Assembly: GCA_022793895.1 (NCBI GenBank)
Contig: JAAWDS010000010.1
Location: 62,001 to 126,000, forward strand
Length of the DNA stretch: 64,000 bases
From: Provencibacterium sp.
GTDB taxonomy: Bacteria; Bacillota; Clostridia; Oscillospirales; Ruminococcaceae
Reading direction: 5' to 3'
Below, piece by piece: positions 7,171-9,921 of the stretch (the first letter of the stretch is position 1; each line of letters begins with the position of its first letter). Below the pieces are notes generated by a model. The model was not told where the DNA came from. It saw only the letters and a list, made by a program, of their open reading frames with translations, and searched no databases. A program made the position numbers and the translations under genes.

Positions 7171-7235
7171 ATGGGAATGGACAACCGGTTCCGTTTTGCC
7201 GGAAAGCTGCTGTTACAAACCTTCTAAAAAGGATG

Positions 7236-7296
7236 ACAAAATAATTACAAAAAATTTAAAAACCTGCTTGCAATTTTTTCCGGTTTCAGTTATACT
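7236..7296 (+). promoter_or_regulatory. Promoter with A-rich upstream element, copy 1
   Basis: TTGCAA (7268-7273), 17-nt spacer, TATACT (7291-7296). Upstream lies ACAAAATAATTACAAAAAA, resembling an UP element. The same block recurs before the paralogue at 8615-8676, at the same distance from its -35 box, so the promoter was duplicated with the gene or is kept under selection. Confidence 0.75.
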
Positions 7297-7371
7297 AAGA
7301 TTGTAAAGCAAGCGGGGAAGGGAGAGCTCTTCGCTGCACAATACAAGCAATTGCAGAGGGGGCATTTTAGA

Positions 7372-8280
7372 ATGAAAAAGATTTTAGCAGCGGTTTTGGC
7401 AGTAGCCATGTCGTTGAGCATGGCGTCGGTAGCGTTTGCAACGAATACGGCTGTTATTAAGGAATCGGATAGCGGCGTGATCGATCCGTCGAAGGACTAC
7501 TTTACGGCGGAAGAGGGAAAATTGCTGACGAGCTATCCGAGTAAAACGGAGTTCGACGTGGAGGATTATCAGATTTACACCAAAAAATCGGATGATATGG
7601 TGTTTAAATTCAAAGTAAAGTCTGGCGAGAAGCTCCGCGCCGATGTTGTGGATGGGAAGGTTTCCGTTTCCGCTAAGCGGGAAAGCAACAATGTTTATAA
7701 AATCACGATTAAGCCGAAATACGGCGTTCGCGATTTTGAGCTCAAAAAGTGGAAAGTAGAGCTTGATGTTGGGAACAGCATCTATTTCATCAAAGGCAAG
7801 GGCGCTTATTCCGATACCCAGAACGTATCCTCCGGCGATCGTCTGACTGTCCGCGACTCCAAGATGGGAGCGGATGACGGCAGCACCGGATCCATCTTCG
7901 AGTTTGACGAGGTGCTGGATGAAGAAACCCGCATCCGCTGCCACGATTACGTAGATGTGTTATTTAAGGGCAACTATGGCACCGATAAAGAAAACATGCG
8001 TGTGGATGACGGCGAGATCGCTGAGGTTTCCAAGTTCTTTGGGGACAGCGACCTGGATTTCTACGATTTCATTGGTACGCCCAAGTTTGCCACCAAGGTA
8101 AAAGTAGTAATCGATGGCGATAAAAATGCCGTTCTTTATGAGTACGATAAAAAGACGGGCGATCTGACCCGTGTAGATGCGAACTATGAGTCTGACGGCT
8201 GGGCCTTCACCACCAAGAACCTGGGTACCTATGTCCTGGCCGAAGAAGATTATGAGGCTGGGAATGCGAAAGCAGAGTAA
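7372..8280 (+). CDS. Secreted protein of unknown family, paralogue A (no wall anchor)
   Basis: 302 aa. Start moved from the track's TTG at 7351 to ATG 7372, which follows AGAGGGGG and gives a clean signal peptide MKKILAAVLAVAMSLSMASVAFA. The mature part is acidic and lysine-rich, with beta-type patterning and no catalytic motif that I recognise. It is clearly homologous along its whole length to the next gene, sharing EETRIRCHDYVDV, FKGNYGTDKEN, YDFIGTPKFATKV and TTKNLGTYVLAEE. It ends about 60 residues earlier, right after the last shared block (EAGNAKAE), without a sorting signal, so it is probably released or held non-covalently. One cysteine in the mature chain (IRCHDY). Codon use is more AT-rich than in paralogue B, which suggests lower expression. 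Function unknown. Confidence 0.85.
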   Translation: MKKILAAVLAVAMSLSMASVAFATNTAVIKESDSGVIDPSKDYFTAEEGKLLTSYPSKTEFDVEDYQIYTKKSDDMVFKFKVKSGEKLRADVVDGKVSVSAKRESNNVYKITIKPKYGVRDFELKKWKVELDVGNSIYFIKGKGAYSDTQNVSSGDRLTVRDSKMGADDGSTGSIFEFDEVLDEETRIRCHDYVDVLFKGNYGTDKENMRVDDGEIAEVSKFFGDSDLDFYDFIGTPKFATKVKVVIDGDKNAVLYEYDKKTGDLTRVDANYESDGWAFTTKNLGTYVLAEEDYEAGNAKAE

Positions 8281-8300
8281 TTAGAATCTCAATAACAATT

Positions 8301-8340
8301 GATAGGGCCAGCCTTCTCTCCAGGGCTGGCCCTATCTCTA
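8301..8340 (+). terminator. Terminator of secreted paralogue A
   Basis: GATAGGGCCAGCC (8301-8313) / GGCTGGCCCTATC (8324-8336), loop TTCTCTCCAG, weak T-rich tail. The core CCAGCCTTCTCTCCAGGGCTGG is identical in the terminator of paralogue B. Confidence 0.75.
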
Positions 8341-8614
8341 TATCGGAGCGCTGCTTCCTTTTTACCCATGGTGCCTTCCCTTAAAGATCCGTTTCTTATA
8401 TCTCCCATCGCTTTGCGCATGACGGCAACCTCTACCTTACTTTCTTTTTTGAAAAATCGTACCCGCTTGGCCAGAACGCCGTACATAGATACCGCTGGGA
8501 CGGATACAGGAAGCAGGCATCCCTTTCGAGACAGAAAGCCGCGGTTTTCTCAGCGCTCATTTCCCTTTGAAAAGACCCGGTTAACAAACGGTGAAAGCGT
8601 TCCTGAATATGGTA

Positions 8615-8676
8615 ACAAAATAATTACAAAAAAATTTCAAAAACCCCTTGCAATTTCCGAAAGGATACGCTATACT
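8615..8676 (+). promoter_or_regulatory. Promoter with A-rich upstream element, copy 2
   Basis: TTGCAA (8648-8653), 17-nt spacer, TATACT (8671-8676), preceded by ACAAAATAATTACAAAAAAA. Near-copy of the promoter of paralogue A. A palindrome GGAGAGCCCTCTCC follows in the leader (8701-8714), where the first copy has GAGAGCTCTTC. Confidence 0.78.
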
Positions 8677-8758
8677 ATAACCATGCTGAGGGGAGGAAAT
8701 GGAGAGCCCTCTCCCAGTGAGATTTCAAAAGTTTAATCTTCAAGAGGAGGAAATACCA

Positions 8759-9844
8759 ATGAAAAAGGTACTTGCAGCGGTTTTGGCCGCGGCTATGTCC
8801 CTGAGCATGGCGTCTGTCGCTTTTGCTGTGACGGTTGCTCCTGTCAATCCGGTTGGTACCGGCGCTACTGGTGATGATTTCGTGCTCGGCGACAATGTTC
8901 TGCTGACTGACCTCAACCACAAGGACGAGATCGACGTTGAGGATCATAGAATCTACACCTTCGGCACTGGCGCTGCGGAAGACATGACTTTCGTGTTTGA
9001 CGTTGCGAAGAAGACCAAGCTTCGCGCTGACGTAGCTGACGGAAAGATCTCTGTTTCGACCAAGAAGATCGGCACCTATGGCGAGGGCGATGCCCAGTAC
9101 ACCACCTATGAGATCACTGTTAAGCCGAAGTGGGGCGTGCGTGATTTCAAGAACGACAACAAGTGGAAAGTTGAACTCGATATCGGCGGCGACGGCGATA
9201 AGGTTGTTTACATCAAGGGTAAGGGCGGCTATTCCGACACCCAGGTTGTTACTTCCGGCGATCGTTTCGCGGTTCGCAAGAGCGGCGACACCACCGATGG
9301 CACCAGCGGCTCCATCTTTGACTTCAGCGAAGTCATTGACGAAGAGACCCGCATCCGCTGCCACGACTATGTGGACGTTTACTTCAAGGGCAACTACGGC
9401 ACTGACAAAGAGAACCTGAGAGTTGTCACCGACAATATCTCCGACGTTGAGAAGTACTTCGATGATTCCGATATCGATTGCTACGACTTTGTTGGCACCC
9501 CGAAGTTCGCCACCAAGGTAAGAGTTATCATCGACGGCGACTCGAATGCTTACCTCTACGAGTACAACAAGAACACCGGCGACATCACTGCGGTTGACGC
9601 TGAGTACACCTCTGACGGCTGGTCCTTCACCACCAAGAACCTCGGCACCTACATCCTCGCTGAGGAAGAGTACGAGGGTGGCAACGTGAAGAAGGAAGAA
9701 GTTGAGGACAAAGAGCCCGTCTCCGCTCCTGACAAGACCAACCCTGGCACCGGCGCTAACGACATGGTCGGCGTTGCCGCTGCTCTGGCTGTTGTTTCTC
9801 TCGTAGCTGCCGGCGCTGTTGCGTTCAAGAAGGCTTCTAAGTAA
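8759..9844 (+). CDS. Secreted, wall-anchored protein of unknown family, paralogue B
   Basis: 361 aa from ATG 8759 (AGAGGAGG upstream; the track's 8699 lies in the leader). Signal peptide MKKVLAAVLAAAMSLSMASVAFA nearly identical to paralogue A. The body shares the same blocks (EETRIRCHDYVDV, GNYGTDKEN, YDFVGTPKFATKV). After an acidic linker (EEVEDKEPVSAPDK) the C terminus has NPGTGAND, a hydrophobic segment of about 20 residues and KKASK. This is the layout of an LPXTG-type sortase signal with an NPxTG variant motif. Codon use is extremely biased (AAG, GGC, ACC), suggesting one of the most abundant surface proteins of the cell. An S-layer-like or adhesin role is possible but unproven; no known domain is recognised. 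Two cysteines in the mature chain. Confidence 0.87.
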   Translation: MKKVLAAVLAAAMSLSMASVAFAVTVAPVNPVGTGATGDDFVLGDNVLLTDLNHKDEIDVEDHRIYTFGTGAAEDMTFVFDVAKKTKLRADVADGKISVSTKKIGTYGEGDAQYTTYEITVKPKWGVRDFKNDNKWKVELDIGGDGDKVVYIKGKGGYSDTQVVTSGDRFAVRKSGDTTDGTSGSIFDFSEVIDEETRIRCHDYVDVYFKGNYGTDKENLRVVTDNISDVEKYFDDSDIDCYDFVGTPKFATKVRVIIDGDSNAYLYEYNKNTGDITAVDAEYTSDGWSFTTKNLGTYILAEEEYEGGNVKKEEVEDKEPVSAPDKTNPGTGANDMVGVAAALAVVSLVAAGAVAFKKASK

Positions 9845-9878
9845 GTTTATTCCTGTAACGTTTCGCTGACACACATCT

Positions 9879-9921
9879 AAAAAGCCCCCAGCCTTCTCTC
9901 CAGGGCTGGGGGCTTTTTGCG
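9879..9921 (+). terminator. Terminator of secreted paralogue B
   Basis: AAAAAGCCCCCAGCC (9879-9893) / GGCTGGGGGCTTTTT (9904-9918), perfect 15-bp stem with loop TTCTCTCCAG. Confidence 0.92.

Follow-up and report, generated by a model that had tools for sequence, protein, structure and literature searches.

Tandem surface-protein genes of Provencibacterium with complementary leader and terminator loops, and short NPxTG ends among their relatives

Pairing between the 5' and 3' untranslated regions of a bacterial mRNA has so far been known from a few single genes. In Staphylococcus aureus, the long 3' UTR of the icaR mRNA pairs with the Shine-Dalgarno sequence of that one gene (PMC3868564), and pairing of this type can repress translation (PMC3868564, PMC7821165). 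In Bacillus subtilis, a 14-nt pairing between the 5' and 3' UTRs of the hbs mRNA is protective against RNase Y (reviewed in PMC7821165). Here, we describe complementarity of the same kind within the mRNAs of two neighboring genes (hereafter gene 1 and gene 2) in a 64-kb stretch of Provencibacterium DNA, which we refer to as the window; it extends over 6 nt in gene 1 and 7 nt in gene 2. Unlike in icaR, the sequence on the 5' side belongs to a leader hairpin that precedes the start codon by approximately 50 nt, its counterpart on the 3' side is the loop of a terminator, and the arrangement is kept over a gene family. The likeness to hbs lies in the 5'-3' pairing itself, with a protective effect that was shown there and is proposed here; hbs, however, is a single gene that forms a linear duplex, whereas the complementary sequences described here are the loops of two hairpins, found at many genes. 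In the open-access literature, we found descriptions neither of leader/terminator loop pairing in such genes nor of the short NPxTG ends reported below. These two points were also absent from the initial annotation of the locus.

The gene pair and its protein family

The genome containing the window (3.07 Mb, 61 contigs) carries both paralogues 3' of an adhE-like aldehyde/alcohol dehydrogenase gene, each equipped with a separate promoter, leader hairpin, and terminator (Table 1). The initial annotation had described them as tandem secreted paralogues with duplicated control elements, and its coordinates and features were correct when re-checked on the sequence. The identical blocks it had noted are present in the alignment of the two proteins (59% identity over 305 aligned positions, E=1e-118), both genes have the same A-rich element and TTGCAA-N17-TATACT promoter, the leader palindromes and the terminators with a common core and loop were found, and, within the pair, NPGTG-hydrophobic-KKASK is confined to gene 2.

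Table 1. Coordinates in the window of the two paralogues and their control elements.
Feature	Position	Strand	Remarks
Gene 1 A-rich upstream element	7235-7249	+	GACAAAATAATTACA; twin at gene 2; whole-genome scan
Gene 1 promoter	7268-7296	+	TTGCAA-N17-TATACT; read from sequence; kept in sister species
Gene 1 leader hairpin	7312-7337	+	GGAGAG (7321-7326) near tip
Gene 1	7372-8280	+	Secreted paralogue without anchor, 302 aa; signal peptide at about residues 1-23
Gene 1 terminator-like hairpin	8301-8336	+	Loop TTCTCTCCAG (8314-8323)
Gene 2 A-rich upstream element	8614-8628	+	AACAAAATAATTACA; twin at gene 1; whole-genome scan
Gene 2 promoter	8648-8676	+	TTGCAA-N17-TATACT; read from sequence; kept in sister species
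Gene 2 leader hairpin	8690-8714	+	Displays UGGAGAG (8700-8706)
Gene 2	8759-9844	+	Predicted wall-anchored paralogue, 361 aa, codon-optimised; conserved C-terminal beta domain at about residues 195-301
Sorting signal of gene 2	9740-9841	+	NPGTG (9740-9754), hydrophobic stretch, KKASK
Gene 2 terminator	9879-9918	+	Loop TTCTCTCCAG (9894-9903); 7 nt complementary to own leader loop

In a sister species, represented by a Provencibacterium MAG (G001), both genes again lie 3' of the same dehydrogenase gene and share the promoter sequences and the A-rich element of the window genes. Between the species, gene 1 matches gene 1 at 73% identity and gene 2 matches gene 2 at 70%, compared to 57-64% between copies, and in a tree the two gene 1 copies cluster together (support 92/96), as do the two gene 2 copies (93/92). 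This grouping supports a duplication that predates the split of the two species. From the orthology and the tree it follows that, in both species, the anchor is found in the gene 2 lineage and is absent from the gene 1 lineage. The pair is therefore kept as a syntenic, orthologous pair, as the initial annotation had suggested checking. Its proposal that a gene-plus-promoter duplication produced a soluble and an anchored version is supported by this synteny and orthology, by the sortases described below, and by the unrecognised mature part of the proteins; its further idea, that the two might be subunits of one surface structure, is conjectural. In the sister species, gene 1 carries the leader motif but is followed by a different terminator. 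The host genome also encodes a third paralogue (L036 4160-5059, contig C23), which is secreted, has no anchor, and adjoins a lipoprotein-like gene; its orthologue in the sister species is L042.

The family had been called unrecognised, and no database gave a confident domain match for the mature part. Pfam at the gathering score matched neither the two paralogues nor 28 relatives, a PDB sequence search with the mature part returned no match, and an NCBIfam search of the paralogues gave just signal-peptide noise and a sub-threshold match to the anchor. A contig scan using one protein as the query found no relatives, and one using an alignment found seven loci. A search profile built from the C-terminal ~106 residues of the mature part (alignment A4) has three copies in the host genome and matches 52 of the 249 genomes searched in the same GTDB family; in 300 genomes of the phylum, just two weak matches were found besides the host genome. 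AlphaFold, given ten sequences, predicted two all-beta regions at a mean pLDDT of 56, with the C-terminal region partly above 75. Comparison of the model to folds in the PDB revealed no convincing relative (TM ≤ 0.27 at best), and because these matches are low we assign no fold family.

The A-rich element (RACAAAATAATTACA) has no further site within one mismatch in the 3.07-Mb genome. With just two good sites, it was rejected as the mark of a genome-wide regulon in this genome. Across genera, the word ATTACAA occurs upstream of 33/124 family genes versus 9/795 in the comparison set, and TTACAAA and GTAACAA are likewise enriched 5' of family genes, all as raw counts uncorrected for A+T content; together these words suggest a common activator. 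The extreme codon bias noted initially holds for gene 2 by one measure, its P2 index of 0.59-0.60 being the top value among 30 long ORFs of the window (0.62 for its orthologue in the sister species). It does not hold by the effective number of codons, which is an ordinary 37.8 for gene 2 versus 35.0 for adhE and 32.1 for ppdk, nor does it extend to gene 1 (P2 index 0.43). The P2 index of gene 2 is consistent with high expression of this gene.

Complementary leader and terminator loops across the family

The terminator loops of gene 1 and gene 2 are 10 nt long and identical, and the 14-mer core of the two terminators is found nowhere else in the window. Each terminator displays CUCUCCA, the complement of the (U)GGAGAG displayed by the leader; in gene 2, the sequence of the terminator loop is UUCUCUCCAG. 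The predicted free energy of the loop duplex is -11.1 kcal/mol for gene 2 and -10.1 kcal/mol for gene 1.

Leader and terminator loops of this type are complementary, co-occur at the same genes, are conserved across genera on varying stems, and are specific to the gene family. Family genes elsewhere have the same arrangement of loops, with stems unrelated in sequence. Calling terminators at all loci with one simple script, we found CTCC loops at 24 of 85 family genes and at three of four further genes encoding a signal peptide and NPxTG, giving 27/89 versus 6/273 for other ORFs (p=4e-13, Fisher), and we found the leader motif, defined as GGAGAG or GUGGAGA, in 18 of the 20 CTCC-terminator genes with a readable leader versus 16/111 remaining family genes (p=5e-11, Fisher), with both tests overstating independence because family genes are related. 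Upstream of non-family ORFs, the motif was present in 26/821 cases. The possibility that the terminator loop is generic to these genomes was rejected based on its rarity at other genes (6/273). Among family genes with a terminator, the CTCC loop is missing from roughly 70%, and at 16 genes the leader motif is present with no CTCC-loop terminator found.

Among the 20 genes, the leader matched the loop of its own terminator over at least 6 nt in 17 and over at least 7 nt in 14, compared to 22% and 8%, respectively, of pairings with control leaders. Of 40 family leaders taken without selection, 31 had GGAGA within a hairpin more stable than shuffled sequences, versus 6 of 47 control sites. Both elements were found in 12 genera (g1, g5, g7, g29, g38, g48, g51, g61, g62, g328, g339, and g355), and several variant loop pairs keep their complementarity: UUGGAGAG/CUCUCCAA in g328, GUGGAGAA/UUCUCCAC in g38, GUGGAGA/UCUCCAC in g29 and g61, and AGUGGAG/CUCCACU. 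These variants are suggestive, not proof, of compensatory changes between leader and terminator loops. In a permutation test, leader and terminator loops of one gene matched only slightly better than loops combined across genera (p=0.07, or 0.18 per genus), a non-significant difference because the core of the loop is nearly invariant. RNAalifold found no common structure for the leaders because their stem registers differ; when the leaders were placed in a fixed symmetric register, 53% of cells were paired versus 45% after shuffling, which lends weak support. A search of Rfam at the gathering score with 10 sources matched tRNAs alone, so neither element is known there.

Possible roles of the loop pairing

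Our preferred reading, to which we assign a probability of about 0.55, combines an old duplication, one anchored and one released copy, and mRNAs whose two ends are joined by kissing loops. The pair would have arisen when the gene for a surface protein confined to a single family of gut bacteria was duplicated in tandem long ago, and each protein, predicted to have two all-beta domains, would be exported via its signal peptide. Copy 2 would be abundant and joined to the wall at NPGTG by a class-B-like sortase, and copy 1, having lost the anchor, would be either released or held non-covalently. On both mRNAs, a 5' hairpin presents the loop (U)GGAGAG and a 3' intrinsic terminator the loop CUCUCCA, and kissing of the two loops would hold the mRNA ends together and close the molecule. 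By analogy with hbs of B. subtilis, the likely effect would be to shield an abundant mRNA from decay. If this holds over the 12 genera, closed-loop bacterial mRNA becomes a family-wide mechanism that can be tested, and the transcription terminator gains a second job.

The main alternative to this intramolecular kissing is pairing in trans, between paralogous mRNAs or with released 3' ends. The terminator-bearing 3' end of one paralogue's mRNA would then bind the leaders of the other paralogues much as a small RNA does, and so coordinate or silence these family members. The loop sequences are nearly the same in all family members of a genome, including both genes of the window, as such cross-talk would predict, and there are precedents both for small RNAs derived from 3' ends and for C-rich loops that work in trans (RNAIII, discussed in PMC3868564). 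Pairing in trans would not by itself, however, require the two motifs to co-occur at the same gene as they do (18/20 versus 16/111), and we regard it as rather unlikely, with perhaps a quarter of the weight of belief. CsrA classically recognizes GGA displayed by the loop of a hairpin. The GGA observed within the leader hairpins could thus be a candidate site for a CsrA-like protein or, given the resemblance of GGAG to the Shine-Dalgarno core, a ribosome standby site, with the terminator loop serving as a decoy or being unrelated. We consider this improbable, as a complementary terminator loop near-exclusive to family genes is not explained by a leader site alone. The two copies are also clearly duplicates, control regions included. 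An ordinary NPXTG surface protein could simply have been duplicated in tandem, with the shared leader and terminator inherited as functionless copies. The same loops, however, recur in 12 genera on stems that are unrelated to one another, and few other genes have them, leaving this last explanation very doubtful.

Sortases and short NPxTG ends

The initial annotation had raised the presence of a sortase in the genome as a point to check, and four class-B-like sortases were found, each a PF04203 match above the cut-off with the TLSTC-type motif of class B. The product of gene 2 has the layout of a sortase substrate, with an N-terminal signal peptide, a C-terminal motif, a hydrophobic stretch, and a basic tail. 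In this layout, and in the presence of sortases in the genome, it is like class B sortase substrates and the NPXTG-anchored proteins of the NCBIfam model NF033846 (Rumino_NPXTG). It is unlike the latter in that its scores, 15.4 bits by hmmscan and 20.3 bits in a genome search, fall below the cut-off of 23.5 and its mature domain lies outside every model.

Two of the four sortases in the host genome resemble lipoproteins, with a lipobox. One of the four is part of a 1265-residue ORF (L039 4587-8384, contig C32) in which, as read from the sequence, the sortase domain is preceded by a region resembling CinA/MoaB and followed by one resembling SpoIID. Class-B-like sortases with N-termini that resemble lipoprotein signals (LAGTAC, SLAAC, SFAGC) were seen at L037 4844-5734, L038 5592-6602, L245 5203-6111, L246 15026-15868, and L250 5011-5844. 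In two relatives, such a sortase adjoins a pyruvate-kinase-like gene; lipid tethering of sortases would be unusual.

Many relatives of the pair differ from NPXTG-anchored proteins in stopping 1-5 residues past NPxTG. The number of residues after the motif is bimodal, with either 25-32 (hydrophobic and basic) or 1-5 before the stop, and two single intermediates. The short ends comprise 52 proteins in 10 genera, such as NPDTGR, NPGTGARA, and NPNTGAC (loci L018, L020, L025, L058, L059, L085, L119, L129, L141, L164, and others). The form is genus-specific: all 17 complete family proteins sampled in g62 have it, and none in g38, g48, or g339. At the DNA level, the three g62 genomes contain 13, 12, and 10 matches to an NPxTG-R-stop pattern and most other genomes none, compared to one match in 22 genomes for a reversed-pattern control. 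At least four of the matches lie at the C-termini of proteins that do not contain the family domain (beta-helix-like, LRR, and others), indicating a genome-wide signal rather than a remnant of a single family. Frameshifts or read-through were rejected as the origin of the short ends, because in the genes inspected none of the frames beyond the stop encodes a hydrophobic tail and terminator-like hairpins lie 3' of many of these genes. An absence of sortases from genomes with the short signal was likewise rejected, with sortases present in 25 of 25 genomes checked. In G432 and G006, a lipoprotein-like sortase adjoins a cluster of short-end genes.

The S. aureus sortase A uses exogenous LPETG-amide peptides that have no membrane stretch (PMC4723074), so sortases may be able to use the short NPxTG ends. 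The likeness is a motif without a hydrophobic tail, as the short ends would need; the difference is that those peptides were synthetic and supplied at high concentration, whereas the short ends are natural and encoded. The bimodal ends make it conceivable that some secreted proteins are attached by sortases without ever having been held in the membrane. We propose only tentatively, at somewhat under even odds, a family-wide mRNA architecture of surface-protein genes in which the intrinsic terminator would also serve as the 3' partner of the 5' leader hairpin in a kissing-loop lock and in which the family would also use a short sortase signal, NPxTG plus 1-5 residues without a membrane stretch, on secreted proteins.

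Three other features were observed in these genomes. On the minus strand of L068, near 1501-1608, a minimal protein consists of a signal peptide, NPATG, a hydrophobic stretch, and KKKRR, with almost no mature part. Surface proteins of g62 (L203, L209, L211, and L221) share a second C-terminal domain just ahead of their NPxTGR ends, WDELKDKIAKLI...FPASVARxLKGxDITxxxRKNGVTYxINGLEIG. Finally, L038 12616-13179 encodes a 187-residue protein made up largely of GCGSNC repeats.
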